In this document: positions 1,474 to 37,801 of the stretch, piece by piece | How the letters are laid out: every line of letters starts with the position of its first letter | Position numbering within the stretch: the first letter of the stretch is position 1 | Virus record (IMG/VR): IMGVR_UViG_3300032265_001184 | Location: 1-46,885 of that record | Source: a virus | Direction: 5' to 3' (one strand) | DNA: 46,885 nt | Made by a program: the position numbers and the translations under genes | The notes under the pieces: generated by a model | Seen by the model: only the letters and a program-made list of their open reading frames with translations | What the model was told of the DNA's origin: nothing | Databases searched by the model: none

Positions 1474-2195
1474 TTTAATTTACTCCATTTTACCAAATGG
1501 TTAATAATGTCCATTGTCTCTTCACCAAGAGATGTTCCACCTCTGGTTTCTTCCCAATGTTTTTTTGCGTCTTCTAAAGAAAAATTTCTACACCCCGCTT
1601 GAATTCGTTTAATTCCATCAGCGCAATCGACATAAACAAAGAAGTATCCATCAGATCGTCTGATTCCATATACCCGAGCGTTATCGGATACACAAGCGTT
1701 ACCGGATACCTGAGCGTCACCATATACATAAGCGTTCCCGGATACCTGAGCGTTACCATATACATAAGCGTTACTGGATACCTGAGCGTCACCATCTACA
1801 CAAGCGTTATCGGATACCTCAGCGTTACCGGATACCTGAGCGTCACCATCTACACAAGCGTTACCGGATACCCAAGCGTTACAAGATATCTGAGCATTAC
1901 CGGATACCTGAGCGTTACCATATACATAAGCGTTACCGGATACCTGAGCGTTACCATATACCTGAGCGTTACCGGATACCCGAGCGTTATCAAATATCCG
2001 AGCGTTACCGGATACCTGAGCGTTACCATATACATAAGAGTTACCGGATACACAAGCGTTACCATATACCTGAGCGTTAGTATCGACATAGGCGCTGGCT
2101 TCTACCTTAGCTGTGTCCGCCACCCAACCACCACCATTGGAGTGTTGGTGGGCAGCTACCGATCCATTACCGTCCTGAAAGTCATATGTAGTCAT
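1470..2195 (-). CDS. Hexapeptide-repeat beta-helix protein
   Basis: Residues about 25-174 are 25 consecutive six-residue units of the form (V/I)(S/Y/D)(G/D)(N/D)A(Q/Y/C/R), for example VYGNAQVSGNAY. This is the signature of a left-handed parallel beta-helix. The helix is capped by a C-terminal domain (GYFFVYVDCADGIKRIQAGC, then FSLEDAKKHWEETRGG) that I have seen with such repeats in other phage proteins. It is too repetitive and lacks the catalytic features to be called an acyltransferase; a structural or binding role is more likely. It follows a sigma70-like promoter and is the first gene of the left-end operon. Copy number could vary by 18-bp slippage. Confidence 0.75.
   Translation of the reverse strand: MTTYDFQDGNGSVAAHQHSNGGGWVADTAKVEASAYVDTNAQVYGNACVSGNSYVYGNAQVSGNARIFDNARVSGNAQVYGNAQVSGNAYVYGNAQVSGNAQISCNAWVSGNACVDGDAQVSGNAEVSDNACVDGDAQVSSNAYVYGNAQVSGNAYVYGDAQVSGNACVSDNARVYGIRRSDGYFFVYVDCADGIKRIQAGCRNFSLEDAKKHWEETRGGTSLGEETMDIINHLVKWSKLK
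1665..2123 (-). repeat. 18-bp coding tandem repeats (hexapeptide array)
   Basis: The DNA repeats with an 18-base period around GCGTTACCGGATAC and GCGTTACCATATAC units (plus-strand reading), encoding the NA-x-V-x-G hexads. Unit sequences are degenerate but several adjacent pairs are nearly identical, as expected for slippage or recombination. The period is exactly six codons and there are no unique spacers. Confidence 0.85.
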
Positions 2196-5919: not shown

Positions 5920-5927
5920 AATAAATA
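5920..5927 (+). promoter_or_regulatory. Late-promoter-like box (AATAAATA)
   Basis: On the plus strand AATAAATA differs by one base from the late consensus and lies about 30 bases before the 236-residue gene. It forms a divergent pair with the minus-strand late box at 5889. Confidence 0.4.
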
Positions 5928-5957: not shown

Positions 5958-6668
5958 ATGAAATCATTCATAGAATTCTTAGAAGAAAACACATTAAATG
6001 AGGCTAATGCTAAGCAAGTTATTGATGTTATGCGGGCCTTCGGCGGTGCTTTCAGACGGGTTGGCCCATCAGCTTTGGTCAAAAATATAGCTGGAGCTGG
6101 TGAAGAAAAATTAGCATCTATGTTAAAAAATTTTAAAGGTCCAGGCGTTCAAGGAACTGGTAACGAACTTTCAACAACTGGTCCAGCAAAAACAGGTGAG
6201 CTTTTGCCTAGACAATCAACATCTAATGTACCTGCATTAGCACAGCAAACGGTTAATAAAGCGTTACCAGCTCCACAAACAACAACTTCTAATCTACCAA
6301 ATGTAATCCCGCCAAAAACTTATACTCCAGTAGAACCTACAGCGCAAACAACAACTAAAACATTAGTTGCGCCTGAAACTGCTACAAAGACAGATACTAA
6401 AACATTAGTTGCACCTGAAACGTCTACAAAGACGGATACTAAAACATTAGTTGCACCTGAAACGTCTACAAAGACGGATACTAAATCAATTACGCCAACT
6501 AAACCTCCTGAACCTCCAAAGCCACCTAAACCTCCTATTGGTCAGGAACCAATTCCGCCAAAACCATTTGGACTTCCAAATTGGGTTTTAGGTAAATCTG
6601 GATTCTTAAGCCAGAACCCAGGATTTATTCCATCTATCAAAGGACATGGTAGATTCTATAGTCCTTAA
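5958..6668 (+). CDS. Repeat-rich protein with capsid-targeting-like leader
   Basis: The 236-residue protein begins MKSFIEFLEENTLNEANA. The MKxxxxF(L/I)xE pattern resembles the T4 capsid-targeting sequence (MKTYQEFIAE), with possible gp21 cleavage after FLEE or TLNE. A globular stretch (residues 19-60) is followed by a long Thr/Pro/Lys-rich linker with three TKTLVAPET repeats, a PPEPPKPPKPP run and a C-terminal GLPNWVLGKSGFLS region. No domain is recognised. It has a GGAG ribosome site. I infer a packaged internal-head or structural protein; the repeats make homology calls unreliable. Confidence 0.55.
   Translation: MKSFIEFLEENTLNEANAKQVIDVMRAFGGAFRRVGPSALVKNIAGAGEEKLASMLKNFKGPGVQGTGNELSTTGPAKTGELLPRQSTSNVPALAQQTVNKALPAPQTTTSNLPNVIPPKTYTPVEPTAQTTTKTLVAPETATKTDTKTLVAPETSTKTDTKTLVAPETSTKTDTKSITPTKPPEPPKPPKPPIGQEPIPPKPFGLPNWVLGKSGFLSQNPGFIPSIKGHGRFYSP
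6354..6479 (+). repeat. Three 42-bp in-frame tandem repeats
   Basis: The unit starts ACTAAAACATTAGTTGC and encodes a 14-residue TKTLVAPET-type repeat. The second and third copies are identical at the base level while the first differs at a few positions, indicating a recent duplication. Confidence 0.85.
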
Positions 6669-6687
6669 TTATAAGAAAAGAAAGCAA

Positions 6688-7308
6688 ATGAAAACATTAA
6701 AACAGTTTACTTTAGAAGTTTATGACGTCCAAGGCTTAAATAAAAAAGATCAAGGTTGGAAAAAATTTATTCTTCCTAATGGAGGAGAAGAAACTCGAGC
6801 ATCATTATTTGATCATATGGGAGAGCATATAGGCACTCATTTAGGACACCACATTTATAAATTTGAACATCCTCTTCAAAAATCAGTAACCTATGCCGCA
6901 ATAAATCCTAAAACTGGTAAAGCTACTTTGGCTGTGCGTGGAGATGTAAATAGAGCAAAAGTTTTGTCTCATTTGCATTTAGCTAGTTCAGATGATAATA
7001 CATTTCCAGCGCACGAACTCTATCATCATTTACTTAAACATGGTCATGTTGCAGCTCTTGTAGCTGATGAACAGTCTCCAGGTGGAAGAAAAGTTTGGGA
7101 AAAATTAGCCAAAAAGAAAGATGTTAATATTCATGGATGGGATCCTACGTATAGGAAACCTGTAAATATTAAAGTTGGTGAAGATGATACTCATGAAGAA
7201 AGCCCACCTGCGCAAATTAGCGGTCAACGTTATCGTGATAAGTATCGTGCCAATAATCCAGATTCATCTGTTCCTCGAATGCAATTAGTTGCACACATGA
7301 AAGATTAG
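6688..7308 (+). CDS. Candidate head-targeted protein with acetyltransferase-like core
   Basis: I chose the internal ATG giving MKTLKQFTLEVYDVQGL, because it yields a capsid-targeting-like leader and avoids overlap with the preceding stop. The body contains a beta-rich region (KSVTYAAINPKTGKATLAVR) and then FPAHELYHHLLKHGHVAALV followed by DEQSPGGRKVWEKL. The last segment resembles phage GNAT-like or internal virion proteins (SD.QS.GG.KIW..L). The C-terminus is basic and disordered. It follows the 236-residue gene by 19 bases. The acetyltransferase suggestion is tentative; it could simply be an uncharacterised injected protein. Confidence 0.5.
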   Translation: MKTLKQFTLEVYDVQGLNKKDQGWKKFILPNGGEETRASLFDHMGEHIGTHLGHHIYKFEHPLQKSVTYAAINPKTGKATLAVRGDVNRAKVLSHLHLASSDDNTFPAHELYHHLLKHGHVAALVADEQSPGGRKVWEKLAKKKDVNIHGWDPTYRKPVNIKVGEDDTHEESPPAQISGQRYRDKYRANNPDSSVPRMQLVAHMKD

Positions 7309-7318
7309 AATTAAGATT

Positions 7319-7600
7319 TTAAGTTGAAAACAGTAATCTAATACACCCAATCAAATCAATCGACATAAGTAAAGTATAGTTCATGATCATGCCAAATGAT
7401 TTGCGAGTGTAAGCAGCCCAAGCGTACATCCCGCAACCCATAATCCAAAAAGGATACATAACCATAAAAGGCGGATCAGGGACCGTTGCTGCCATAACAA
7501 TGGCGCAACAAATGCTAATAACCCATGCCAAAAACTCAACACAAAAGCGAAAAGGGTAAGATTTAAAATCATTTATAATCCATTGTATAGTTTTTTTCAT
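7319..7600 (-). CDS. Small membrane protein, three predicted helices
   Basis: Hydrophobic segments at about residues 18-40 (FCVEFLAWVISICCAIVMAA), 45-63 (PFMVMYPFWIMGCGMYAWAA) and 72-90 (MIMNYTLLMSIDLIGCIRLL) suggest three transmembrane helices with a basic N-terminus. Similar small membrane proteins occur in T4-like marine phages. Function is unknown; with no neighbouring lysis gene on this strand, a holin role is not supported. It is convergent with the plus-strand pair, with only ten bases between stops. Confidence 0.5.
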   Translation of the reverse strand: MKKTIQWIINDFKSYPFRFCVEFLAWVISICCAIVMAATVPDPPFMVMYPFWIMGCGMYAWAAYTRKSFGMIMNYTLLMSIDLIGCIRLLFST

Positions 7601-7617
7601 ATTTAATTTGTAAACTT

Positions 7618-7866
7618 TTATTCTTCCCAGCCTAATGCTTTAACACATTTCTTTCTACCATGCTTATATGTAAGAATATGAGTAATAGCCTGATCTTTAC
7701 TTGTCAATCCTGTCTTATCTACAGGAATTCTAGTAAGACTAGCAGCATGGTTTCTTAAATCTTTAAGTGACATCTTCTTTAAACCTGAATATTCTTTCCT
7801 AATCTGATCTAAATGCCACTCATCACCGGTTTGGTGTTCCTCAACAAAATCATTTAATGATTTCAT
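7618..7866 (-). CDS. Small basic protein with capsid-targeting-like leader
   Basis: This 82-residue protein begins MKSLNDFVEEHQTGDEWHLD. The start has the MK-S/T-x4-F-x-E-E pattern shared by other window proteins and T4 internal proteins. The remainder is helical and rich in lysine and arginine (YSGLKKMSLKDLRNHAASLT, HGRKKCVKALGWEE), compatible with a DNA-associated packaged protein. AAGGAAA precedes the ATG. The valine at the putative cleavage site (VEE) departs from the T4 (I/L)xE rule. Function is unknown. Confidence 0.5.
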   Translation of the reverse strand: MKSLNDFVEEHQTGDEWHLDQIRKEYSGLKKMSLKDLRNHAASLTRIPVDKTGLTSKDQAITHILTYKHGRKKCVKALGWEE

Positions 7867-7883
7867 TTATTTTCCTTTTTATT

Positions 7884-7957
7884 TGGCATCCGTGTAAGGA
7901 TTTGAACCTCAACTAACTATTTTGGAGACAATTGTGCTGCCATTACACCACACGGAT
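7884..7957 (-). tRNA. tRNA-Trp (CCA)
   Basis: The minus strand folds into a full cloverleaf: a 7-bp acceptor stem (ATCCGTG/CACGGAT), a D-arm with GG, an anticodon stem with two G-U pairs and loop CTCCAAA (anticodon CCA), and a T-arm with TTCAAAT. The 3' CCA is encoded. It is paired with tRNA-Asn upstream. Confidence 0.9.
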
Positions 7958-7963
7958 ATTGTT

Positions 7964-8038
7964 TGGCTCCCCGAGAAAGATTCGAACTTCCGACCAGAGC
8001 ATTAACAGTGCTCGGCTCTACCACTGAGCTATCGGGGA
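7964..8038 (-). tRNA. tRNA-Asn (GTT)
   Basis: The cloverleaf has acceptor TCCCCGA/TCGGGGA, D-stem GCTC/GAGC, anticodon stem GAGCA/TGCTC and loop CTGTTAA (anticodon GTT). A T-arm with TTCGAAT and an encoded CCA complete it. It lies six bases from tRNA-Trp and probably shares its transcript. Confidence 0.92.
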
Positions 8039-8045
8039 ATATATT

Positions 8046-8504
8046 CTATATATTATAATTTAATAGGAAATTATTGTACAATACTTCTTCTAATTCAAAT
8101 GCTTCTTTTTCCCAGGGTGAGTTTACATAACTATCATATTCTGTAACAAAATCATTTTGTGTTCTAGAAGTTAAGTTATGATTCTCAAACAACTGTTTAT
8201 TCCAATAGACATTACCATCTTTATACTGTAGTTGCTTCTTTATATATTGTTTACAATGAACTACTTCATGGGCAAGACATTTAATTTGTTCTAAGAATGG
8301 AAGTTCTTTTGCAATTTCAATCATAAAGTAAGTTGGTAATAGTTCTGTACAAAAAGCATCGGCTGATAATTTCTTTACTATGTATAAATCTATATTGATG
8401 TTTTTTCTCTTAGGCATTAATTGAAAGAAGAAATGTTTGATTGCTGCTTCATAGAAAGAAATCTTTTTCTTTGAGCGAGCACCAAAAACTTCTACCTCAA
8501 TCAT
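8046..8504 (-). CDS. Putative zinc metallopeptidase (HExxH)
   Basis: Residues 79-83 are HEVVH within CLAHEVVHCKQYIKKQL, a zincin active-site helix. A downstream glutamate in SPWEKEAFELEE (residues 129-140) is positioned like the third zinc ligand of SprT-like or minigluzincin enzymes. Length (152) suits a single small protease domain. There is no signal peptide, so it would act in the cytoplasm. The start overlaps the previous gene by eight bases. The substrate is unknown; a role in host takeover or head assembly is only a guess. Confidence 0.6.
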   Translation of the reverse strand: MIEVEVFGARSKKKISFYEAAIKHFFFQLMPKRKNINIDLYIVKKLSADAFCTELLPTYFMIEIAKELPFLEQIKCLAHEVVHCKQYIKKQLQYKDGNVYWNKQLFENHNLTSRTQNDFVTEYDSYVNSPWEKEAFELEEVLYNNFLLNYNI

Positions 8505-9084
8505 ATAGACCCATCACTTGAGATTCTAGTACGATTAGATCTAAAATTCCATCAGAGTACCATCTTGGTATTTCACGATTAGTCCATCGAGCAAATCCAT
8601 TCTTTTTCATGATATAGTATTGCCGATACGCATTCACCGCACCATTTGTCTTACAATCTTCTGGCATAGCCTGAGGAGGTTCATCAATCAATAAACTTTT
8701 AATTGGAATATTGAGTGGCAACCGAGACAAAGCAAATTCAAGTTCACCGGTTTTATGTTGCTTACCATAACGATATGTATATTCTTTCAATAAGTGTTTC
8801 CACATAGTAAGTAACCAGGTGTAATGACTTGCATCCTGCCGCGTCCAGATAGCTGAAGGATGGTTAATATGTGATGCTTTATAGATAATGTTGTCTCGAT
8901 TGTCGTCAAGCTTCCATCGCTTGATTTTACGACCTGAACTATTATCTACATATTGTTGGCCATCAAGCAATCGATGAGCAGTTGACATCAACTGAGCATA
9001 CTCGATAATCATTTTTACTACATGTTTATCGCAATGAAATTCAGCACATCGCTGCGGGTCATAGTCTAAGAAAAAGATGTTCAC
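8497..9084 (-). CDS. Conserved phage protein, HCDKHVVKM family
   Basis: The N-terminus [20 protein letters not shown] followed by HVVKMIIEYAQLMSTAHR is a strongly conserved motif that I recognise from T4-like cyanophages and other phages, without an established function. NHPSAIWTRQDASHYTWL and the C-terminal PRWYSDGILDLIV are also characteristic. The His/Cys-rich motif may bind metal. The gene starts with GTG overlapping the gp41 stop (GTGA), which explains the start choice. It is transcribed with the replication genes 41, uvsX and 43. Confidence 0.65.
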   Translation of the reverse strand: MNIFFLDYDPQRCAEFHCDKHVVKMIIEYAQLMSTAHRLLDGQQYVDNSSGRKIKRWKLDDNRDNIIYKASHINHPSAIWTRQDASHYTWLLTMWKHLLKEYTYRYGKQHKTGELEFALSRLPLNIPIKSLLIDEPPQAMPEDCKTNGAVNAYRQYYIMKKNGFARWTNREIPRWYSDGILDLIVLESQVMGLYD

Positions 9085-10451
9085 GTAAAGTCCTCAAATG
9101 CTGATTTGTCGAATTTAGATTTTACACTAGTTCTATGAGAATCGTCAATAATATCTTGTTGAGCGCTTTGTTCAACATTGTATAATTTCATCTTGGATCT
9201 GTCAACACCTACAACAAACTTTTTGTAGTTATTTGGATCACTGTATCTATTCTTAAGCTGTTTAACTAAGATCTGATTCAGACCAGCCAACTGATCATTG
9301 CTGATGATGGCAAACATGAAGTCGGCCGTTGCTGGTAGGCCAAATGATTCTGATGTATCTTCAAGTCCAACATCAGAGTTGGTATAACCAGTTCTATTTG
9401 TTTGAGTAGCGCTAACGATAGGTACATCGAACTCTACAGCAAGGCCACGAATCTCCTCAGCAATCGCCTTGACATACATGTAGGAATTAACATTGGAACC
9501 AACCTTCAGCCTGGAGGATGAACAGATGTTCAAGTAATCGATATAGATTATATCAGGTTTAAAGTTCTTTTTAATCTTTAATTCATTCAGGAGGTACCTA
9601 AAGTTAGAAGATCCTGCTGATGCGGTTGGGTATTCCTTGATAATCAATCGGCCAACCGTCTTTTCTTTGATCCTTGCAATCTTTTTCTCATACACATCTT
9701 TAGGCAGGACAGACAGTTCATCGATTGCAACATTCAATAGGTTTGCATCAATACGTTCTGCAATTCTTTCTTCTGCCATTTCCAAAGTGATGTATAGAAC
9801 ATTCAAACCATCCAGTAAGTTTCCTGCGGCACAGTGGCACATGAACATTGACTTACCAACACCAGTGCCCGCTAAGCAGATGTTCAGAGTCTTATTACTT
9901 AAGCCACCCTTGGTGATCTTATTAAAGTATTCAAGGTTGAATGGTACTTTGTTTTCTTTGGTATGATAAAGATCATATCGCTTTTCCCAATCATCAACTA
10001 GATCATGTCCAACATTAGTGTCAAAAGAAACCGATAATGCATCAGATAATAGCTCAGGAATAGATCCTTTAGAGATGTCAACTTTCTCATCACCATTAAT
10101 TAGCTTAATGGACTTTGAGATTGCAATGAATAATGCTTGATCTTGGCAGAATTTTTCACTGTGCTCAATAAGCCAGGGTAAACTGGTTTTGCTATCAACG
10201 TCCAATGCATCAATGATTTCATTTGAATCTTTAAACTGACTTTCTGTTACATCGGTTTTATTTTGAAGATCAATCCTCAATGCTTCTTTGGAAGGAACAG
10301 TATTATACTTGATTGTGTACGCATCAATTAGTTTAAAGACTAATCGCTGACTATTGTCTCGAAAGTACTCCGCTTTAAGAAACGGAAGTACTTTACGTGT
10401 AAACTCCTCATTAAAGAGTAAGTTAGATAGAATCGTCTTCTCGATCGTCAT
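9081..10451 (-). CDS. 41: gp41 replicative DNA helicase
   Basis: This is a DnaB-family hexameric helicase of the T4 replisome; it unwinds the fork 5'-3' and partners with gp61 primase (not in this window). The Walker A motif [11 protein letters not shown] lies near residue 198. The Walker B-type strand [11 protein letters not shown] and the following [18 protein letters not shown] complete the RecA-like core. Length (456) is close to T4 gp41 (475). It overlaps uvsX by 29 bases with a GGAG ribosome site inside uvsX. The order uvsX-41 is as in T4. Confidence 0.93.
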
Positions 10452-11490
10452 TCACTTCTCCATCATCAGGTTGTTGACCATATGTGAATTCTTTCTTTGC
10501 ACAATCCTCAAGCACCATAAGCATTTCTGGTGTAAAGTATTTCTCAGGATTGTTATTTATTTCCTTACCATACACACGAGTTCCATCAGGCAGTTCATAC
10601 CGAGTAGATACTTTCTTTATTATACCATGTGATTCAGCTAAGTCAAGTAGTCCATAGTATCGGTCTAGGCCTTTATCATAGGATAGACGTACTTCAACCT
10701 GGCTATTTTCTTTCGATAACCGTGATTTGTGCATCTTAACTTTAATAATGTTACCAATCACATCATTGTTACCATCTTTTTCTTTCTTCTTGGAAAGCAT
10801 AGCAATAGTAGAAGCTGCATACTTCAACCCTGATCCACCAGAGATCTCATTAGTTGGCACATAGGCACCAACTGCTGCATATACATGATTAGTCACAAGT
10901 AATGGAACTTTCACTTTGGCAAGTTTTAGAGTAAGTACTCGGAAAGCAGCTTTAATTACTTGTGCTTTCGTCATGTCTCGTGTTTCTTTACCTTCAGTAA
11001 TATCTTCCATTTCTTTTGTTGTAGAAAGAAGACCCAGGGAATCAAGCACCATCATAAAGGGAGGACGACTTTCACCTGATTTTTCATAATATTCAAGAGT
11101 CTTGATTGCATGGGTCCTAAACTTTTGAATGGTATCCATCTCAGCAACGATTACTCGTTTAGTATCAATACCACGTTGTTCCATCATTGATTTGGTAACC
11201 GCAGCTTCGGTGTCATAATACATGACACCAGCATCTGGATTTGAATCTAAGAATGCTTTGACGATTCCAAGTACGAAGAAAGTTTTTCCTGTAGCCGATT
11301 CACCGGCGAAAGCAGTAATTTTATTATTTGGCACACCGCCAAAAAGACTACCACTAAGAACTGCGTTAAGAATATAGGAACCAGTATCAATGCATCCACT
11401 ATACTCTGCAGAACCCTGGCCATCAGCAACGATGCTTGTGTCTTCATCTTTGATTTGCTCCACTAGATTTTTAAAAAAAGAATTGCTCAT
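10423..11490 (-). CDS. uvsX: UvsX recombinase (RecA/RAD51-like)
   Basis: UvsX carries out strand exchange for recombination-dependent replication with UvsY and gp32. Walker A is AGESATGKT (residues 62-70), and [19 protein letters not shown] supplies the Walker B and following loop. [15 protein letters not shown] and [15 protein letters not shown] match the DNA-binding core. The 355 residues compare with about 390 in T4. AAGGA lies upstream of the ATG. It follows gene 43 on the same strand and precedes gene 41; UvsY is also in this window. Confidence 0.95.
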
Positions 11491-11502
11491 AGTTTATCCT
11501 TA

Positions 11503-14049
11503 TTAAGAAAAGAAATCATCAATAGTTGCTGTCATGTTTTCTTCAGCAACCCAATTAATTTTTTCAAGAATACCATTTAAAGGTTCAAGAAAAGCTTTTT
11601 CAAATTGAGTATTGTAATCAATCAAAGAAATGATGTCAAACTCTTTTGGAATGTCATCTGGTGATGAGATAACTTCAATGTTAAATCGATTAGGATGTCT
11701 TAGATAACAGAATTTAATCTTTTCACCATTACCAACTAATCTATATTTTTTAGTTAGATCATGCTTCGTGACGAAGTGATTATAGATGAGGGCACCTTTA
11801 ACATGAATTGGAGTGCCCTTCTTGTAGATTCCACTGCGGTCTATATATTTATTTATACCGTTACAGCCACGAGGAAATGCAATGTCTACAAAAGGTAGAT
11901 TCATAAAGTCTTGCTTAAACCCCTTGATGTATTCAATCAAAGCTTTATTGTCCTGAGTCATGATAATCTTAAGAGCTTTCTTAATAGACTCTCGACACGC
12001 TTGAGGAGTAGAAGATTTAACAGCTTCAATGCCCATGATCTTGAGTTTAGGTTCAGCATATCGTACTCCTTCTGAATCATACACATTCAGGATGTAACGT
12101 TTCTTTGCAGTCCAGATTCCCTTATCTGCAATTGATTCACGTTTCATCTTCATCTTTTGTGCATAAGCATTAGTATAGTCTGCCAATTCTTGATAGCACT
12201 TATCAATGAATGGTTCAAGTTTTTCAGAAGAAACCTTTGTTAAGAAGTCTGTGATTTTAGTCTTATCTGTCTCGCCCTGGTACACATGATTTACAAGTTC
12301 ATTTAAGCGAATATAGATTGAATCAGTATCAGACGCAAGGATGTAGTCCTTACCACTAGTCTTAAGCAAACTATTTAAGTACTGGTTCATCTTATTCTCG
12401 ATCCAACGAATGGTGACTTGGCCGGACAAAGTTACACATTCTGCCAAAGCCAACTGATAATACCGAAAATAGCTATTACCAAGTGCGCCATAAGCTGAAT
12501 TCAACATGATCTTAAATGCAAGTTGTAGGTTGTTGTACCTGGAGATTTCTTTCTCCAAATCATATGATTTGTTTACCTGATATCGTTTCTGAGCTTCAAT
12601 CATCTTTTTCTTATAAACAGTACGCATGTTATAGTACTGTTCCATAAGCTCCGGTAGGAATCCTTGCTTATCTTTTCTGAATAAGCAACGATTTGCTGTC
12701 TTGATGTAATCAGTACTCCAATCAGCAGCTTCACCAGTTAAGAACGTATCAACATTAATCTCACCTGGCATTTGGCCTGCATACATTTCTGGTGATATAT
12801 TATACTGCATGATTAAGTGTGGATAAAGACTATTCAAGTCAAATGACACTACCCATTCATGCATTCCGGTCTGAGGTACTTTTACATAAGCACCAGCAAA
12901 AGATGTTTGTTCTTCAGGATTATCCAGGGCTCCAACAGTCTTATATGGAATGGCAGGAATATTTTCTTTTGGCGTGATGACTTTAAACCGATTGATTAAG
13001 AAGTTGTGTGTAATGATATCCCAAAGTTTTACTACTCCAAATGTATCAGCATAGTTAACTTTTGCAGAATATGACATAGCATATACGAGTTCAATCAACT
13101 TAAGCTTATCTTCAAACTTAACGATTAGATCTACGTCTTTAATGTTGTAATCAATAAACAGTTGATAGTTATTCTTATAGAGATCAAAGATACTTCCATA
13201 TTCAGAGTAATCAATTTTCTTTTCACCAAGTTCTACATAAGCAATATGATCAAGTTTATATGATTCTTGATTGGTGTATGTAAACTTTTTGTATAGATGA
13301 ATGTAATCTAGAACTGATACGCCAAAGATTTCATATACAACAAAGTCACCATTAGCTTTACCACGACTTACATGTCGTGTATTGATGATACTCCAAGGTG
13401 ATAGTTTTCGAGTAAACTCTTCGCCGTGAATCTTATTAATCCGGTTAATGATATATGGAATATCAAATGCTTCAATGTTCCAACCGGTCACTACATCAGG
13501 ATCAATTCCAAACCAGGCATGCACAAACCCACGAAGAAGATCTGCTTCATCTTTGCATTTAATATAAAACACGTTTTCAACATGGGAATCATATTCACCT
13601 ACACCCCATACAAAAGTCTTTTCTTTGAATCGTAAAGCAATTGCTGTGATTTCTTTATCTGCTTTGTCTGGTTCAGGGAACCCGTCATCCGACGCAACCT
13701 CAATGTCAATATAAATGACACGAATCTTAGTTGCATCGTATTCAATATCATTTTGAAACGTATCATTGATCCAAACATAATTAAACATATTTGGACTTTG
13801 ACCATGAATGCTAAAATTATCTACATGCTTATAACTTTCAACAAAATCTTTTGCATCACGAACAGAATCAAAGTCCATTCGATCAACTTTAATATCGTCA
13901 AGAGTAGAATATATTGCTTGTTCAGGCTTACGTGATTCAACAAAAAGATATGGTTTACATTTTGTTTTACGTTGAATGCGTCGACCTGCTTCATATCCCC
14001 GATAGAAGAGGTTATCACCACGAAGTAGTACTGAAGTATAAAATTTCAT
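11503..14049 (-). CDS. 43: gp43 DNA polymerase (family B)
   Basis: This replicative polymerase has an N-terminal 3'-5' exonuclease (VIYIDIEVAS near residue 113, with Asp and Glu of Exo I). Motif A is FDLNSLYPHLIMQYNISPEM near residue 403, motif B KIMLNSAYGALGNSYF near 516 and motif C ASDTDSIYI near 573. At 848 residues it is slightly shorter than T4 gp43 (898) and shows no split, intein or intron. It works with clamp gp45 and loader gp44/62 encoded just upstream of the lysis module. It is divergent from the endolysin gene. Confidence 0.97.
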   Translation of the reverse strand: MKFYTSVLLRGDNLFYRGYEAGRRIQRKTKCKPYLFVESRKPEQAIYSTLDDIKVDRMDFDSVRDAKDFVESYKHVDNFSIHGQSPNMFNYVWINDTFQNDIEYDATKIRVIYIDIEVASDDGFPEPDKADKEITAIALRFKEKTFVWGVGEYDSHVENVFYIKCKDEADLLRGFVHAWFGIDPDVVTGWNIEAFDIPYIINRINKIHGEEFTRKLSPWSIINTRHVSRGKANGDFVVYEIFGVSVLDYIHLYKKFTYTNQESYKLDHIAYVELGEKKIDYSEYGSIFDLYKNNYQLFIDYNIKDVDLIVKFEDKLKLIELVYAMSYSAKVNYADTFGVVKLWDIITHNFLINRFKVITPKENIPAIPYKTVGALDNPEEQTSFAGAYVKVPQTGMHEWVVSFDLNSLYPHLIMQYNISPEMYAGQMPGEINVDTFLTGEAADWSTDYIKTANRCLFRKDKQGFLPELMEQYYNMRTVYKKKMIEAQKRYQVNKSYDLEKEISRYNNLQLAFKIMLNSAYGALGNSYFRYYQLALAECVTLSGQVTIRWIENKMNQYLNSLLKTSGKDYILASDTDSIYIRLNELVNHVYQGETDKTKITDFLTKVSSEKLEPFIDKCYQELADYTNAYAQKMKMKRESIADKGIWTAKKRYILNVYDSEGVRYAEPKLKIMGIEAVKSSTPQACRESIKKALKIIMTQDNKALIEYIKGFKQDFMNLPFVDIAFPRGCNGINKYIDRSGIYKKGTPIHVKGALIYNHFVTKHDLTKKYRLVGNGEKIKFCYLRHPNRFNIEVISSPDDIPKEFDIISLIDYNTQFEKAFLEPLNGILEKINWVAEENMTATIDDFFS

Positions 14050-14058
14050 TCATAATCC

Positions 14059-14066
14059 TATAAATA
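14059..14066 (+). promoter_or_regulatory. Late promoter (TATAAATA) for the lysis genes
   Basis: There is a perfect plus-strand TATAAATA about 60 bases before the endolysin start, in the divergent region facing gene 43. A hairpin (AATGGTA/TACCATT, 14074-14095) lies right at the predicted 5' end of the transcript. Confidence 0.7.
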
Positions 14067-14073
14067 ACCAGGG

Positions 14074-14095
14074 AATGGTAATATTATATACCATT
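14074..14095. promoter_or_regulatory. Leader hairpin between gene 43 and endolysin
   Basis: AATGGTA, eight AT-only bases and TACCATT form a perfect 7-bp stem. On the plus strand it would be the 5' end of the late lysis transcript. On the minus strand a TATAAT overlapping the loop may be the -10 box of a gene 43 promoter. Confidence 0.45.
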
Positions 14096-14127
14096 AATTA
14101 AAATAAAAACACAATAAGGAGTCTTTT

Positions 14128-14745
14128 ATGAGTTTAAAAGATTTTCAAACAAAAATTGGCGTAACTCCTGATGGTGAATGGGGATCAAGCACCCTTAAAG
14201 CCGCTGTAAATTATTTTAAAATGCCTAAAGTTCGTGCTGCTCATTTCTTTGCTCAAACTGCTCATGAAAGTGGCAACTTCAAAACTCTATCAGAAAATCT
14301 AAACTATAGTGCAGACGGACTTGTCAAGATCTTTCATAAGTACTTCCCTGATATTGCTGCTGCTACTTCTTATGCTAGAAATCCAGAAAAGATTGCAAAT
14401 AAAGTATATAGTAATCGTATGGGTAATGGCGATGAAGCTTCTGGTGATGGTTGGAAATACAGAGGTCGAGGAGCTATTCAATTAACAGGTCGTGAAAATT
14501 ATGCTGCTTTTGCAAAAGCTTTTGGTCGACCAGATATACTTTCAAATCCAGACGTTGTTTCTGGTGAACTTGCTTTTGAATCGGCCATGTTCTTCTTTGA
14601 TAAGAATAATCTTTGGGAAATATGCGATAAGGGCGTCAACGTTATATCAATTACATCTCTAACAAAAAAAATCAATGGCGGAACGATTGGTTTAGAAGAA
14701 CGTAAAAATCATACTTATGAGTATGCAAAGATTTTAGGAGTCTAA
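14128..14745 (+). CDS. GH19 endolysin (chitinase-like muramidase)
   Basis: The protein is a glycoside hydrolase family 19 lysozyme that degrades peptidoglycan for lysis. The catalytic region is FAQTAHESGNFKTLSENLNY, with glutamates near residues 47 and 56. It is followed by the family hallmark WKYRGRGAIQLTGRENYAAF. A short N-terminal VTPDGEWGSSTLKAAV recalls a peptidoglycan-binding repeat. There is no signal sequence, so export would need a holin. AAGGAG precedes the ATG. It has its own late promoter and is followed after one base by a small membrane protein. Confidence 0.92.
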   Translation: MSLKDFQTKIGVTPDGEWGSSTLKAAVNYFKMPKVRAAHFFAQTAHESGNFKTLSENLNYSADGLVKIFHKYFPDIAAATSYARNPEKIANKVYSNRMGNGDEASGDGWKYRGRGAIQLTGRENYAAFAKAFGRPDILSNPDVVSGELAFESAMFFFDKNNLWEICDKGVNVISITSLTKKINGGTIGLEERKNHTYEYAKILGV

Positions 14746-14746
14746 A

Positions 14747-14974
14747 ATGTCCTTAAATAAACTTACTGCAATAGTAACTATTCTCGTAACAGTAACACTT
14801 TGTGCCGTAGTTGTATTAATGGTAGCTACATTGATGGTAGGATTGTTTAATGACATCGTAGATAATATGGAAATTTTTAAACTTATAGGCCCAGCTTTTC
14901 AGACTATCATAGGTGGATTTATAGGGTTATTAGCTGGTATTAAATTGAAAAGTATTGATGCAACTGAAGAATGA
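14747..14974 (+). CDS. Small membrane protein, possible holin
   Basis: The 75-residue product has two hydrophobic segments (TAIVTILVTVTLCAVVVLMV at about 7-30 and FQTIIGGFIGLLAGI at about 52-66) and a charged C-terminus (KLKSIDATEE). It starts one base after the endolysin stop with AGGAG in the endolysin C-terminus, and a terminator follows. Size, topology and co-transcription suggest a class II-like holin or a lysis accessory protein, but no holin family motif is evident. Confidence 0.55.
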   Translation: MSLNKLTAIVTILVTVTLCAVVVLMVATLMVGLFNDIVDNMEIFKLIGPAFQTIIGGFIGLLAGIKLKSIDATEE

Positions 14975-15006
14975 AAAAGGGAGCATTAACTCCCCTTTCC
15001 TTTTTT
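14975..15006. terminator. Probable bidirectional terminator
   Basis: AAAGGGAG-CATTAA-CTCCCCTTT forms a stem with one bulge. It is flanked by a T-rich run on the plus strand (after the lysis genes) and by TTTTTC on the minus strand (after the Hsp20 unit). Confidence 0.7.
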
Positions 15007-15009
15007 AGA

Positions 15010-15102
15010 TTAAATGCCAGTTCTCATAAAATAACTTATCAATGAACAAGCATTAAATAAGATCAAAAGTGACAAAGCTGTATTGTCTTTAATAAGATTC
15101 AT
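15010..15102 (-). CDS. Tiny membrane peptide, 30 aa
   Basis: Its ATG overlaps the hsp20 stop codon as ATGA, with GAGGAAAA as ribosome-binding site within the end of hsp20. The peptide has a single hydrophobic helix (TALSLLILFNACSLISYFM) after MNLIKDN, and it ends right before the terminator. Translational coupling and a clean transmembrane segment favour a real gene; short length keeps confidence modest. Confidence 0.45.
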   Translation of the reverse strand: MNLIKDNTALSLLILFNACSLISYFMRTGI

Positions 15103-15569
15103 TTTTCCTCCGCAAGAAACTGTTTAGTAGTTGGTTCTTTAATTTCGATCTTTTTGGGCTTCTTATGATCAGGAATAATACGCTCCAGAACAATCTGAAG
15201 AATACCATTTAAAATCTCAGCACCCTTAATTTCGATAGAGTCATTTAGAGAGAATGTTCGTGTAAAGGCACGAGTACTGATTCCCTTATAAAGGTAAGGA
15301 TTAGCATCGTCATGTTTGGAATTGCCCGTGATGACTAGCTTATCCTCGACAAATTCAATCTCAATGTCAGAACGACCGAAACCAGCTACTGCAAGCTCGA
15401 TTGCGTACTTGTTCTCATCAAGTTTCTTGATGTTGTACGGAGGATAGTGTGGAATGCTCTTTGTGATATCGTCATGAAGTTTTGAAGCTTCGTTGAAGAC
15501 GTGATCAAACCCAACAAAGAACGAATTGAAAGCGTCCCAGTTTTTTGGGACAAAGTATGTCTTAGTCAT
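15099..15569 (-). CDS. hsp20: Small heat-shock protein (Hsp20/alpha-crystallin)
   Basis: The 156-residue protein has an alpha-crystallin domain at about residues 45-135: YAIELAVAGFGRSDIEIEFV, then KLVITGNSKH, then the GILQIVLER strand. A C-terminal IEI motif for oligomer contacts follows. Hsp20 chaperones hold unfolding proteins and are common in T4-like cyanophages, where a role in capsid assembly or host stress has been suggested. It has AGGAGG upstream of the ATG and a TATAAATA late promoter about 90 bases upstream. The long leader can form hairpins. Confidence 0.92.
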   Translation of the reverse strand: MTKTYFVPKNWDAFNSFFVGFDHVFNEASKLHDDITKSIPHYPPYNIKKLDENKYAIELAVAGFGRSDIEIEFVEDKLVITGNSKHDDANPYLYKGISTRAFTRTFSLNDSIEIKGAEILNGILQIVLERIIPDHKKPKKIEIKEPTTKQFLAEEK

Positions 15570-15598
15570 AAGACCTCCTGTTAAGCAAGGTTAATATA

Positions 15599-15623
15599 TT
15601 GGCAGTTTATACGCTACTGCCAA
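15599..15623 (-). promoter_or_regulatory. Hairpin in the hsp20 leader
   Basis: TTGGCAGT and ACTGCCAA form a perfect 8-bp stem with a 9-base loop. It lies between the late promoter and the hsp20 ribosome site. A second weaker GCCA/TGGC stem lies just upstream, and ACCT near the start could pair with the AGGT of the ribosome site. Confidence 0.5.
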
Positions 15624-15658
15624 ACGCGCCACCCCAAAGGCATGGCAATCTCAAACTC

Positions 15659-15666
15659 TATTTATA
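15659..15666 (-). promoter_or_regulatory. Late promoter (TATAAATA) for hsp20
   Basis: There is a perfect minus-strand TATAAATA between the 160-residue gene and hsp20, about 90 bases upstream of the hsp20 start. Confidence 0.65.
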
Positions 15667-15674
15667 ACGTATTT

Positions 15675-16157
15675 TTAATTACGTGTACCAGTCTTTGACG
15701 AAAAGAGTTGTTTCCAAAGCTGCTTTGCAGATTTTTCAGTTCCATTATGAATTACTTTACCATCATCGCGTCGAATCTGCCAATTGCCATTACGACGTTG
15801 CAATAGTTCAGTTCCATTTCTAGAAGTTGCATGAATTTGCTCGTCTGGTTCATCTAAGTCGGTTTCTTCGGTATATCTACCTCTATAAGAAGAGGTAGTT
15901 GCTTGAGCACCATGTATATGTTCTTTAGCAGCTTTAACGGCTTGATTTATACCAGCTTCTGTACCATCGTGCTTAAAATCTTCTGAATCACCACTTAAAT
16001 GATGAACTGCCATTACTTCACCTTTATAAAAAGCAATTTGGCCAATTTCACGACCATTTGGTGCTTTTACACGAATAGATGGTTTGGTGGGTGAATCTCC
16101 GGCTACATCGCCATATGAATTTCTTACTTCGTTAATTATTTCTTTTAAAGTTTTCAT
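15675..16157 (-). CDS. Candidate head-targeted protein, 160 aa
   Basis: The leader MKTLKEIINEVRNSYGDVAG fits the T4-type capsid-targeting pattern, with a likely gp21 cleavage after IINE. The mature part has a beta-rich domain (KAPNGREIGQIAFYKGEVMA) and a second one (GTELLQRRNGNWQIRRDDGK) separated by an acidic linker (TEETDLDEPDEQ). No family is recognised. It lies directly downstream of regA in an otherwise T4-like replication order, so it is an insertion there. Packaging in the head is inferred from the leader only. Confidence 0.55.
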   Translation of the reverse strand: MKTLKEIINEVRNSYGDVAGDSPTKPSIRVKAPNGREIGQIAFYKGEVMAVHHLSGDSEDFKHDGTEAGINQAVKAAKEHIHGAQATTSSYRGRYTEETDLDEPDEQIHATSRNGTELLQRRNGNWQIRRDDGKVIHNGTEKSAKQLWKQLFSSKTGTRN

Positions 16158-32923: not shown

Positions 32924-34258
32924 TTACATTAGGTTGGTAACTAGCACTCTGCGATAGTATAGGTTTGTATCTTCTGATACTGCACCTAGGCCATAAGTTG
33001 TTCCCTGTGCATATGGGTTGGCTACGATACCATAGCGGGTCTTGAAGCCAATCTTTGGCTGGAATGAACCCTGGTCTACTGCACGAACCATCTGGAGAGG
33101 AACGTATGGGCAATAGAAGATACCGGCATCGAATGCACTTGAACCCTTATAACCAACTGTTAGATAGTTACCAGTGGTATATGGATCAACATATACACGA
33201 ATGCGACCATTTAGAACACCAGCAAAGGTGTTGCCTGTGTCATCGACATTAAGCTGGTTGCTGTTTAGAGCAGGAGCATAGTCGAGAACGCCGGCCATCT
33301 GAAGAGCAGAAGCTACGTCAGAAGAGCAGACGATTAGGTTGCCCTTGCCCCGACGTGTATCTTTTGCAATTTGATTACATTCACGTTCAACCTGGAACAT
33401 GAGGCCCTTGAACTTTTCAACTGACCAACGACCGTTGGAGTCAGTATCAAGGTCGAAGATACCAGCTGTAGTTGTACCAGTGTTGGCACCACGAGCAGCA
33501 GATAGGTTGATGGTACGAACTACTTCGCGATTGATTTCAGCAAGAATTTCAGCTGAAAGAATGTTGCTTAGTTCGGTTTCAGCATCAAGACCATGAATTG
33601 CTTTTAGGTCCTGAGCTAGTTCCATCGTGTACTCAGCCTTTAGAGCACGTGTCTTAGCAGTAACTGTAACCTTCTCAATGGAGAAAGCCATTTCTGGGAA
33701 AGATGTGCCACCGGAAATACCTAGGGCTTCAGCATTGGCTGTTGCCATGCCGGTGCCATAGTTATAGGCGTTGCCATAAGCAAGGTTAGCAGTAACTGAT
33801 GTGTTACCAGGAACTGTACCAACATGCTGCTGACCGATTGTGTTAGAACCAGCTGTAAGTGTGGCAAAACCCGTATTGGCTTCGTTGTAGAATGCTTCTA
33901 CGCCGGAGTTTGAGGAGTTGCTGTACTTAGCACGCATTGCAAAGATTAGGCCTGTTGGACCAGTCATTGGCTGAACGCCGCAGATGTCATAGGCAATTAG
34001 GTTTGGCATGGAACGACGAACTAGTGAAATAAGCACTGGATCGAAGTTGTCGATGTCATTACCTGTCTGGTTGGCATGTGTTGCTTCGCCTAGAAGACGC
34101 TGACCACCAAGCTGACGACCGGTTTCACGGAGAGCCTGTTCGGTATTTTCTAGGATTACTGCGGTTACAGCGCGACGATGAGCATCTGTGATCCTTGGTA
34201 GATCTGGGTGCTCTAGTACTGGCTGCCACTTTCTTTGAGCTTCTTCAGTTAGAATCAT
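32924..34258 (-). CDS. 23: gp23 major capsid protein
   Basis: This is the HK97-fold major head protein. The N-terminal domain (MILTEEAQRKWQPVLEHPDL...) is a pro-segment. The likely gp21 cleavage is after Glu58 in RLLGEATHANQT, matching the (L/I)xE rule. The mature part contains VRRSMPNLIAYDICGVQPMT, then GPTGLIFAMRAKYS, as in T4 gp23, and ends with YGIVANPYAQGTTYG. The 444 residues are shorter than T4 (521). A perfect late promoter precedes it and two terminators follow, giving high single-gene expression. Confidence 0.97.
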   Translation of the reverse strand: MILTEEAQRKWQPVLEHPDLPRITDAHRRAVTAVILENTEQALRETGRQLGGQRLLGEATHANQTGNDIDNFDPVLISLVRRSMPNLIAYDICGVQPMTGPTGLIFAMRAKYSNSSNSGVEAFYNEANTGFATLTAGSNTIGQQHVGTVPGNTSVTANLAYGNAYNYGTGMATANAEALGISGGTSFPEMAFSIEKVTVTAKTRALKAEYTMELAQDLKAIHGLDAETELSNILSAEILAEINREVVRTINLSAARGANTGTTTAGIFDLDTDSNGRWSVEKFKGLMFQVERECNQIAKDTRRGKGNLIVCSSDVASALQMAGVLDYAPALNSNQLNVDDTGNTFAGVLNGRIRVYVDPYTTGNYLTVGYKGSSAFDAGIFYCPYVPLQMVRAVDQGSFQPKIGFKTRYGIVANPYAQGTTYGLGAVSEDTNLYYRRVLVTNLM

Positions 34259-34322: not shown

Positions 34323-35324
34323 TTACTTAACAGTAGTTCTTGCAATGGCGTTCATATACTGAGCCATCGGGCCTGTTGTTACCTTTGGCTCTTCGCCATC
34401 GAATGACTCTTCGAGAAGACGTGAAGTCTTTCTAACGGTATTTGATGGGAAATATGTCTCTTTAATAACGTTCAACTTATTCTTAAAAGTATCTACGTCA
34501 TTAAATTCTACACCTTCAGAAAGTGTCTTTAGCTTTTCAATTTGAGTGGCAGCTAACCCTTCTGCAACCTCAGAAAAAATCTCATCGCTAACTTTTTCAT
34601 TGAAAAGATTAACTAGTTCGATATTTTCATTGAGCTTTTCATTAAGAGCTTCTTCAAGTTCCTGAACACGGCTTGATAGCTCTTCTACTACATCAACCTT
34701 CTCTTCTGGAATGTCAATGTAATGTTCAACAAATAGGTTCTTTAGACCGTTAATGAAATCTTCAGTTACTTCAGAACGGAGTGAAGACTGAATAGCAATT
34801 TCATTTTCCTTAACCCACTCTTCTGCAACGTAGTTGAGATACTTATCAAGCTGTTCAACTAGTTCTGCAATCTGTAGAGTTGTTTGTTCTTCGAGGGCTT
34901 GAACTTCTTCAACAAGCTTAGCTTCATATAGAGCATCGAGCTCTTGAATAGCTTCAGTAAGTGTTGAGTGAAGAGCAGCTTCAAAAAGTGTTGAAGCTTT
35001 ATCTTTGAACTCTTCAGAAAGTTCTTCACCATCAAACATAAGTTCCATATGTTCTTTAGCGGCAATTGTTGCGGCATTCTTAGCAGCATCGCCAACTGAA
35101 GCGGTGTTTACGTTGTTTTCTGGATCTGTATCTTCTACACCAGTAACACCATCGCTTAGAGCTTTGGAAGCTGCATTGCCCTGCTTCTTGCTGTTGCCAG
35201 GGGCTTGAGCTTGAACGCCGGTAGGATCAGCGGCCATCGAAGCGCCAGTAGCGCCACCGCCAACTGGTGCTGTTTCATTTAGTTCTTCAAGAAGAACATT
35301 TTTAATTACGTCTTTTAGACTCAT
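34323..35324 (-). CDS. 22: gp22 prohead scaffold protein
   Basis: gp22 forms the prohead core that gp21 later degrades. It is acidic and almost entirely helical with long coiled coils (VQALEEQTTLQIAELVEQLD, VVEELSSRVQELEEALNEKL). It ends in a conserved region VRKTSRLLEESFDGEEPKVT, then MNAIARTTVK. An N-terminal low-complexity Gly/Ala region is unusual. The length of 333 compares with 269 in T4. It lies between genes 21 and 23 as in T4. Several LxE sites could be gp21 targets. Confidence 0.92.
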   Translation of the reverse strand: MSLKDVIKNVLLEELNETAPVGGGATGASMAADPTGVQAQAPGNSKKQGNAASKALSDGVTGVEDTDPENNVNTASVGDAAKNAATIAAKEHMELMFDGEELSEEFKDKASTLFEAALHSTLTEAIQELDALYEAKLVEEVQALEEQTTLQIAELVEQLDKYLNYVAEEWVKENEIAIQSSLRSEVTEDFINGLKNLFVEHYIDIPEEKVDVVEELSSRVQELEEALNEKLNENIELVNLFNEKVSDEIFSEVAEGLAATQIEKLKTLSEGVEFNDVDTFKNKLNVIKETYFPSNTVRKTSRLLEESFDGEEPKVTTGPMAQYMNAIARTTVK

Positions 35325-35368: not shown

Positions 35369-36028
35369 TTATATTTTAACTAATTCATCAATAAAATTTT
35401 TGAATACTTTAAGCTTTGCTTCTTCAAGTTTTTTACGTGAAGTTTTCTTAATAGTGGTTTTCATTTCTTCAAGCTTTTGTGCTTTAAGAAGACCATTATC
35501 CCACACCCATTCAACACCTTCCATGATTCCACGAACAAAAGCATCAGGTGCAGAAGGATCAGCTACAATATCAGCAGCAGTAGCTAAATGGAAATCATCT
35601 TGAACTTCCATAAAACCTTGCTTATTTTCGCGGATTGAACCCATACCACGCGTAGAAACACCAAGAGAAGCACCTTCATCCATAAGGTTCTTTACTATGT
35701 TACCCATAGGAGTATCCATAATCTTTGCCCGACCAATGAAGTTGGATCCGTCTTGACGAAGTTCTTTGATCATGTGTGATACACGATCTAGATTAATAGA
35801 AGGACCACTTGGATGTCCAAGTTCGCCATAAGCTCTGTTCTGTTGAACTGCTTCTTTCATATAACGAGCACATTCTTTTTCTAGAATAGAAACAGGATAA
35901 ACTCTTCCGTTTCTATTCTGAAGATCGGCTTGCATGAATACGCCTTCAATGAAGTAATCTTTCTTACCAGATTCTTTAGCTTCTGTAACGTAACGTACGT
36001 TTTCTACTTGTTCGCATATAAGTTTCAT
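35369..36028 (-). CDS. 21: gp21 prohead protease
   Basis: The serine protease of the prohead cleaves core and capsid proteins at (I/L)xE sites. Catalytic motifs are GELGHPSGPSINLDRVSH, holding the His, and SLGVSTRGMGSI, holding the Ser, typical of this HK97-protease-like family. Length (219) matches T4 (212). Its presence matters for the capsid-targeting leaders noted in the window. It is downstream of the 123-residue gene and upstream of gp22. Confidence 0.94.
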   Translation of the reverse strand: MKLICEQVENVRYVTEAKESGKKDYFIEGVFMQADLQNRNGRVYPVSILEKECARYMKEAVQQNRAYGELGHPSGPSINLDRVSHMIKELRQDGSNFIGRAKIMDTPMGNIVKNLMDEGASLGVSTRGMGSIRENKQGFMEVQDDFHLATAADIVADPSAPDAFVRGIMEGVEWVWDNGLLKAQKLEEMKTTIKKTSRKKLEEAKLKVFKNFIDELVKI

Positions 36029-36411: not shown

Positions 36412-37527
36412 TTACTTACCTCGTTTAGCGGCATAATAAGCAGCTAAAGCCATTTGTCTACGCTTTTCTTTAGACTTACCAGCAAACTTTGGATCCTTTG
36501 AATTAACAAAGTCATCGATATATGCACCAGCACCCATTGAAGGAGTTAGAATCTCATCAAGCTGAACGTCTTCTTTCATGCAGCATGAGCATGAACCACC
36601 CTTTTTATAAGTCTTGCTACATTCTTTACATGTTGCTTCTAAGAGACCTCTAAGGAATGGATTGAGAACTAGTTCATTTTCAGATTCGTATGAATTATTC
36701 TGCATTGTACGCTTTGCAACGTCTTCAATCTTTCCCTGTTTTGCTTTTCCTTCTAATGAAGAAGTTGTTCCGGTGTCAGTTCCATCTTTAGGAAAATGTT
36801 TTGTTTGTGGTAGACCATACCTTTTTAAAAGTCTATCCATTTTTTCTTGAGGAGACATTTTTCGACTTTTTCTTGCTTCATCAAGTTCAGTTTCTTCTTT
36901 TTGAACTTTATTAGCCGCATTCTTAATTTTCTTATATCGATCAACATATGCTTTGCCAGCTCTAAGTGGATCGCCATGCTTAGCAATTAAGTCCATAGCT
37001 CTTTCTTTAGAGGGAGCAGGAACTCCGGCTTTTTGCAAAGGAAGAAGGAATTTGAAATGATCAGAGTGTGTGTCTTCACTAACAAATTCTTCATTCTTTG
37101 GATCAGTATATCGTTTTCCTGATGCATAATCCATTGTTTTATCAGCAAATGTTTTCTTCTTCTTATATTTCTTTTCAATATCTGAAGCTAAATTCTTACG
37201 ACCATATTGATTTCCTAATTTATTCATTGTGTCGCGAATACGTTCACTGCGACTCCGCGAATCACGGGTTGAATCAGATGATTTAGAATTATTTTCTGGA
37301 TCATCAAATCTAATTTCTTGATAGTCTTCATACACCTGTTCATCTTCACCTGGGTTATAGCCGTGCTTAGGTGTACGATCTACAGACTTAACATTGGTTG
37401 CATTAAAGACATCATCTTTATTGCCATTAGCATCTTCTGTTTTCTTAATAACGTGCTTCTTGACGAAACGATCTTCGTCAGCTGACTTAGGCTTATAGAG
37501 TTCTATGATGTCTTTAATAGTCTTCAT
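36412..37527 (-). CDS. Putative prohead core/internal head protein with CTS-like leader
   Basis: The start MKTIKDIIELYKPKSADEDR has a capsid-targeting-like leader (possible cut after DIIE) followed by the KPKSADE(D/Q)+F segment I recognise from the same position in other T4-like phages. The body is charged and low in order, with KKYKKKKTFADKTMDYASGK. A late four-cysteine cluster, TCKECSKTYKKGGSCSCCMK, could bind zinc. A possible equivalent is T4 gp68, a prohead core protein, by position only. It overlaps the gp67-like gene by 14 bases. Confidence 0.6.
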   Translation of the reverse strand: MKTIKDIIELYKPKSADEDRFVKKHVIKKTEDANGNKDDVFNATNVKSVDRTPKHGYNPGEDEQVYEDYQEIRFDDPENNSKSSDSTRDSRSRSERIRDTMNKLGNQYGRKNLASDIEKKYKKKKTFADKTMDYASGKRYTDPKNEEFVSEDTHSDHFKFLLPLQKAGVPAPSKERAMDLIAKHGDPLRAGKAYVDRYKKIKNAANKVQKEETELDEARKSRKMSPQEKMDRLLKRYGLPQTKHFPKDGTDTGTTSSLEGKAKQGKIEDVAKRTMQNNSYESENELVLNPFLRGLLEATCKECSKTYKKGGSCSCCMKEDVQLDEILTPSMGAGAYIDDFVNSKDPKFAGKSKEKRRQMALAAYYAAKRGK

Positions 37528-37801
37528 CTTCTTCTCCGGTTTCTATATCGTCGTCAGATAATTCGATCTTATCATCAATTTCCAAATCATCTACTTCAAT
37601 ATCATCAAGAGTTTGCTCGAGGTCTTCATCGTCAAAATCGTCTTCATCTGGATCATTACCAAACATCGAAGCTGCGACTTCTTGTTTTTGTGCGTCTATT
37701 ATTTCTAATGCTTTTTGACCAAGTAGTTCTTTAAACGTAGAACCAAAATCTATTGGCTGGTTATCAGCAGCATATTTAACTAAATCGATTACTTCTGCCA
37801 T
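37514..37801 (-). CDS. 67: gp67-like acidic prohead core protein
   Basis: The 95-residue protein has a short helical N-terminus (MAEVIDLVKYAADNQPIDFG, then LLGQKALEIIDAQKQEVAAS) and an extremely acidic tail (DDFDDEDLEQTLDDIEVDD and on). It matches the character and position of T4 gp67 (between 20 and 68/21), a prohead core component processed to internal peptides. A TATAAATA box lies directly upstream. Confidence 0.75.
   Translation of the reverse strand: MAEVIDLVKYAADNQPIDFGSTFKELLGQKALEIIDAQKQEVAASMFGNDPDEDDFDDEDLEQTLDDIEVDDLEIDDKIELSDDDIETGEEDEDY

Follow-up and report, generated by a model that had tools for sequence, protein, structure and literature searches.

Why should several otherwise unrelated proteins of one phage begin with nearly the same ten residues? 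The question is raised by IMG/VR virus record IMGVR_UViG_3300032265_001184, of which positions 1 to 46,885 (the window, meaning the whole stretch analysed) form a 46.9-kb fragment of a freshwater T4-like phage of the cyanophage-type branch. Four of its genes, named here by their start positions 5958, 6688, 7866 and 16157, encode proteins with a leader of MK(T/S) form, and the original prediction held that such leaders send their carriers into the prohead, as in T4. Our analysis supports this interpretation: the leaders are very probably capsid-targeting sequences (CTS) of the T4 internal-protein type, and the proteins bearing them are likely to be packaged. The support comes from agreement at the T4 CTS residues, the modularity of the leader, a residue preference at P1' (residue 11, after the Glu at residue 10), the presence of gp21-, gp22- and gp67-like genes, and virion mass spectrometry in relatives.

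All five MK(T/S) N-termini that had been claimed, those of the four genes and of a 371-residue head gene, were read in the sequence at their starts; the Glu of the pattern stands at residue 10 in the four proteins, but at residue 9 in the head gene. The motif MK[TS][FYLIM].[EDQKN][FILM][ILVMTF].E was tested at 452 Met sites in open reading frames (ORFs) of at least 40 aa, and four sites fit it, namely 5958, 6688, 7866 and 16157. Permutation of the motif positions (2000 rounds) gave an expectation of 0.0005 matches and shuffling of N-terminal residues one of 0.0035, each with a maximum of 1 against the four observed; the motif was written after reading the earlier finding and is so partly post hoc, its register is that of T4 IPII and IPIII, and the margin is very large. 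As a positive control, the scan of a 48-kb T4 stretch returned IPII and IPIII only. Across the whole window, a pattern scan requiring E10 recovered just the four leaders among plausible genes, and without E10 the scan also picked up the 371-aa gene, along with a single spurious frame of 35 codons that lies within another gene.

The comparison with T4 can be made residue by residue. Experiments have shown residues 4 and 7 of the T4 CTS to matter for targeting and residues 8 and 10 for processing (PMC9026906), and the CTS reading is supported because the leader matches at these positions. In 5958, 6688, 7866 and 16157, in this order, residue 4 is F, L, L and L and residue 7 is F, F, F and I, in agreement with the hydrophobic or aromatic residue and the F or I of the targeting positions. 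IPII and IPIII begin MKTYQEFIAE/A (the slash marks the cleavage point) in the same register as the window leaders; when the four are aligned to them, residue 4 is hydrophobic, residue 6 acidic or Gln, residue 7 F or I, residue 8 aliphatic except for Thr in 6688, and residue 10 E. IPI, the third T4 internal protein, is a proven injected protein. Like the window, the three T4 proteins combine a ten-residue N-terminus in register (MKTYQEFIAE or MKTFKEFT...) with unrelated bodies, gp21 and core genes; they differ in residue 4, which is Y in T4 and L or F here, and in a P1' Ala that the window proteins lack. Pfam and PHROG scans, made without a direct comparison, gave no family shared by IPI-III and the window bodies. 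A further T4 protein, the 54-aa gp61.1 annotated as hypothetical (AF158101 18966-19130; L443:1467-1631, minus strand), reads MKTFKEFIKE at its annotated start; it is a candidate unrecognised T4 internal protein and resembles small Gly/Lys-rich environmental leader proteins (L159, L189).

Beyond the leader the four bodies are indeed unrelated, as had been proposed: each forms a singleton cluster by BLASTP, none matches a Pfam or PHROG family convincingly by E-value, and the AlphaFold2 (AF2) models of 6688 and 16157 are too weak to indicate function. The 5958 protein (5958..6668, plus strand, 236 aa) carries the leader MKSFIEFLEE (5958-5987) on a Pro/Thr-rich body with TKTDTKTLVAPET repeats, for which there was no Pfam or PHROG match and no relative in IMG/VR; its candidate gp21 sites are LEE/N at residue 10 and a second, canonical LNE/A at residue 15. 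A T4-type late promoter core, ATAAATA, lies at 5921..5927 (plus strand), 31 nt upstream of this start; it is one of three plus-strand sites in the window, and 5958 is the first gene of the 5958-6688 pair. The 6688 protein (6688..7308, plus strand, 206 aa; leader MKTLKQFTLE, 6688-6717) belongs to the same operon, and 6688 is its likely start, within a mechanical ORF from 6646, because the upstream gene ends at 6668. Relatives of it were searched for and none found, a PDB sequence search gave no match, and the best PHROG match was weak (E 0.023). A function derived from strand order and this match was set aside as unsupported, the AF2 model (predicted local distance difference test, pLDDT, of 43) being too poor for a fold search.

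The other two genes lie on the minus strand, and the window scan placed no late promoter core close upstream of either. The 7866 gene (7618..7866, 82 aa; leader MKSLNDFVEE, 7837-7866) is directly downstream of tRNA-Trp and tRNA-Asn. Its ortholog in L441 begins MKTFNDFITE, so that S3T, L4F and V8I keep the consensus, and residues 11-20 diverge. The 16157 gene (15675..16157, 160 aa) lies between regA-like and hsp20 genes, and its leader, MKTLKEIINE (16128-16157), has a canonical I-x-E. Three relatives retain M-K-T-L, I8, E10 and the C-terminus, and in one of them, L002, residues 11-95 are largely replaced under a constant leader and C-terminus. The AF2 model of 16157 (pLDDT 58) contains a helix at 4-14. 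PDB matches of 16157 to a de novo TIM-barrel and a weak needle-protein match of 7866 were discounted.

The same modularity appears at a much larger scale in environmental phages. In IMG/VR, codons spelling MKTFx[KQE]FhxE were found in at least 120 stretches, against seven for the same codons permuted, where the matches mostly open very short frames. Of 130 leader matches, 123 open an ORF tail 40 aa or longer; in the prokaryote genomes of GTDB (257 Gb) the figure is 35 of 80, and most matches there look like chance. Among the matches listed, 126 leader proteins fall into 66 unrelated body clusters, and with whole-genome leaders included 162 bodies give 76; Pfam domains lying a little after the leader comprise HD_4, ART-PolyVal, GNAT, CTP_transf, DPBB, HNH and DUF6267. 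If the leader proteins were divergent copies of one ancestral gene, with the leader as surviving homology, the first ten residues in common would be accounted for, but not the 66-76 unrelated clusters with different known folds, nor the replacement of the middle region beneath a constant leader in the 16157 orthologs; common descent of the bodies was therefore rejected on clustering and is very improbable. Of 120 leader contigs, again among the matches listed, 74 carry a T4 core gene within the stretch taken.

Some individual leader proteins deserve mention in their own right. MKTFKKFISE precedes an HD_4 protein of SpoT/MESH1 appearance (L213:1223-1783), which hints at an injected alarmone hydrolase. 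Unrelated leader proteins in L176, L198, L240, L245, L252 and G028 have ADP-ribosyltransferase-like YHGT/YRG N-termini recalling T4 Alt, the one in L252 matching ART-PolyVal at E=1e-23. Three leader genes crowd into 3.4 kb of G004 (L117; 115243-118632), the first reading MKSFFQFILE and the others MKRFSQFIAE on a HAD-like phosphatase and MKRFTNFLLE on a nucleotidyltransferase.

Is the leader a processed peptide under selection, or might it be a signal in the nucleic acid? In a profile built from one protein per body cluster (n=66), information content drops to background beyond residue 11. The search pattern left residue 11 free, and 36 of 66 proteins have Ala or Ser there, against 56 of 518 residues that follow other Glu of these proteins (p=3e-15); a protease site would be expected to show such a bias. 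At residue 8 most leaders have Ile or Leu, which gp21 prefers at P3. A nucleotide-level start-codon signal, for ribosome binding or RegA repression, could make N-termini alike, since the proteins resemble each other only over their first codons, and repressors of the RegA type act close to the start codon. However, K, F and E are encoded within the leader much as they are in the bodies, which points to selection on the peptide and not on nucleotides, and the conservation includes hydrophobic exchange and the Ala/Ser preference at residue 11; this alternative was rejected because of the codon usage and retains only the slimmest chance of being correct. The leader genes are also associated with the T4-type late promoter core: 47 of 160 leader ORFs have an ATAAATA no more than 80 nt away, against 257 of the 1650 remaining long ORFs (p=3e-5), and the antisense figure near leader ORFs is 2.5%.

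Do proteins with such leaders reach the virion? Virions purified from the Kyanoviridae phage S-CREM2 contained 52 of its 219 proteins (PMC10665884 Table 3). Its genome has four sites for the generic pattern M[KQ]xxxxFhxE, which was chosen with knowledge of this phage; every one is an annotated start, and all four products, the S-adenosylmethionine (SAM) hydrolase ORF6, ORF13, ORF136 and the cytidylyltransferase ORF154, are in the virion list. The same pattern finds leader ORFs in 8/8 Kyanoviridae records scanned, and in T4. The S-CREM2 virion list includes a fifth tagged protein, a kinase with a GTG start (ORF14, VKRFDAFLTE). In the Cas9-annotated ORF12 a copy of the leader, FASFMAE/A, is internal, at a position conserved in four relatives. 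In S-SCSM1, published mass spectrometry places the NMNAT, with the leader MKSFLQFLKE/A, in virions. Patterns fixed beforehand gave one annotated-start match in S-CREM2, present in the virion, and two in S-SCSM1, one of them in the virion.

Whether the virion enzymes are cargo or contaminants was not decided by the authors of the S-CREM2 study; the leader favours cargo. That the detected proteins are abundant contaminants, with the motif an unrelated coincidence, is a possibility allowed by those authors and by the partial fitting of the relaxed motif, yet all four generic-pattern matches fall inside the 52/219 set, and neither the P1' signature nor the late promoters depend on mass spectrometry; we consider it quite improbable. 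Cluster C cyanophages (L437-L440, S-CREM2 ORFs 12-15) share a conserved run of small protein, kinase, small protein and Cas9-annotated nuclease; most products bear the leader, the copy in the Cas9-annotated protein lies at about residues 17-27, and all four are in S-CREM2 virions.

The machinery that a CTS would need is encoded in the window itself, with both the gp21 protease and prohead core genes (PF03420, PF25623, gp67-like). Head genes follow the T4 order gp20, gp67-like, 371-aa protein, gp21, gp22, gp23. On the minus strand lie a gp67-like acidic prohead core protein (37514..37801; late promoter core at 37812), the gp21-type Peptidase_S77 prohead protease (35369..36028; PF03420 E=5e-37, phrog_207 E=3e-82), which is the expected processing enzyme and is ~62% identical to gp21 of Synechococcus phages, the gp22-type scaffold (34323..35324; PF25623 E=1e-64), an expected docking partner of the leaders, and the gp23-type major capsid precursor (32924..34258; PF07068 E=2e-149), whose N-terminal LLGE/A reads as a site of the gp21 kind. 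The window also encodes gp41, UvsX, gp43, RegA, gp62, gp44, gp45, gp46/47 and UvsW besides the head-tail block, and the contigs nearest to it come from IMG/VR metagenomes.

The 371-aa protein (36412..37527, minus strand) occupies the T4 gp68 position between the gp67-like and gp21 genes, an interval that also holds one 123-aa gene. Its N-terminus, MKTIKDIIEL (37498-37527), is related to the leaders as had been noted, and orthologs begin MKTFKQ[IL]IAE, MKSFKDYIQE, MKTLKQLLE and others; because of its position, it is likely a prohead core component rather than cargo. Since this N-terminus is shared with its orthologs, the cargo leaders may imitate a core subunit. The related N-terminus at the gp68 position, together with the digestion of T4 core proteins by gp21 (PMC9026906), also lends something to the idea that the proteins docked by the leader serve in assembly or in the scaffold and are then lost or degraded, with nothing injected. 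Against this, tagged enzymes are present in mature virions purified on caesium chloride, and HD hydrolase, ADP-ribosyltransferase, GNAT and nucleotidyltransferase bodies would be odd for a scaffold; this explanation is unlikely, though the least improbable of the rivals.

Several observations weigh against packaging and processing by the T4 route. The window leaders have N, V, H and V at P1' in place of Ala or Ser, and residues 8-10, which read LEE in 5958, INE in 16157, VEE in 7866 and TLE in 6688, place a P3 other than Ile or Leu in the last two, so that processing there is uncertain. The virion proteomics comes from related cyanophages, not from this phage; S-SCSM1 ORF30 (MKTFKQFMSE, 106 aa) went undetected in virions; and the p=6e-4 for five S-CREM2 matches of the relaxed motif is optimistic because this motif was loosened after the S-CREM2 N-termini had been seen, a dependence the generic pattern shares. 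Several complete T4-like relatives scanned had none of these leaders, and the Rak2-like jumbo phage CBB had essentially none, with one match, so phages of the Rak2 type do not carry the tag as a rule. A few large leader contigs, possibly fragments, show neither T4 nor HK97 head genes, which leaves restriction of the leader to gp21 phages likely but not proven. On the other side, the Thr at residue 8 of 6688 and the distal LNE/A of 5958 have precedents, since T4 IPI reads MKTFKEFTSTTTPVSTITE; of the two sites first described as imperfect, FTLE of 6688 is thus matched in T4 and FVEE of 7866 reads FITE in the ortholog. From the residues at these sites, gp21 processing of the 5958 and 16157 leaders is likely, and that of 7866 and 6688 uncertain.

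Under the CTS reading, the first ten residues would fold into a short amphipathic helix, by which proteins made late would dock to the prohead core, presumably through gp22-, gp67- or gp68-like proteins. The S77 protease gp21 would then cut after the Glu of [ILV]-x-E in this phage and free the body inside the head, where it may remain with the packaged DNA and exit with it at infection. The cargo would be 5958, 6688, 7866 and 16157, with the 371-aa protein as a core part of related N-terminus, and the injected bodies might act early in infection, for example in counter-defence.

Known systems share parts of this scheme. T4 Alt, like the leader proteins, is head-packaged enzyme cargo, and several environmental leader proteins have an ADP-ribosyltransferase-like domain; Alt itself is a packaged ADP-ribosyltransferase with gp21-processed termini, and a domain of this kind was not recognised in any of the four window proteins. 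To our knowledge, Alt does not have this form of leader. Variants of the T-even ip locus, found via their signal sequence according to work cited in PMC12373910, likewise join a conserved leader to unrelated bodies, but they belong to Tevenvirinae and act on GmrSD restriction enzymes, whereas the window phage is of the cyanophage-type T4 branch. The ejection proteins of phiKZ and SPN3US lose a propeptide to a gp21-related protease after x-x-E, as predicted here; the phiKZ motif is S/A-x-E (PMC9026906), and the short MKTFxxF leader is not described there.

Two further features stand apart from the leader genes. A 241-aa protein (1470-2195, minus strand) consists of NAxVSGNAxVYG-form repeats, apparently a hexapeptide-type left-handed helix repeat. 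The other plus-strand gene group contains an endolysin-like gene (14128-14745, plus strand; MSLKDFQTKIGV...), and ~60 nt upstream of this gene lies a late promoter core (14060-14066, plus strand).

The mechanism itself is known from T4; the range of cargo in environmental T4-like phages is unexpectedly wide. Within the literature searched, the leader was described for T-even phages only, and the S-CREM2, S-SCSM1 and S-CREM1 papers left the reason for virion enzymes open. On balance, we favour the view that MKTF[KQ][QE]F[IL]xE/[AS] is a packaging address that, outside the T-evens, is widespread in much of the T4 superfamily, and through which dozens of unrelated proteins would be injected. Their number would include ADP-ribosyltransferases, an HD hydrolase, acetyl- and nucleotidyltransferases, kinases, a SAM hydrolase and, by its internal copy, a Cas9-annotated nuclease, and the enzymes found earlier in cyanophage virions would be explained. 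If the tag works as in T4, the first-strike injected proteins of uncultured and environmental T4-like phages would be predictable from ten residues, which would provide a list of candidates for counter-defence and host takeover, together with natural cargo tags for non-T4 heads.

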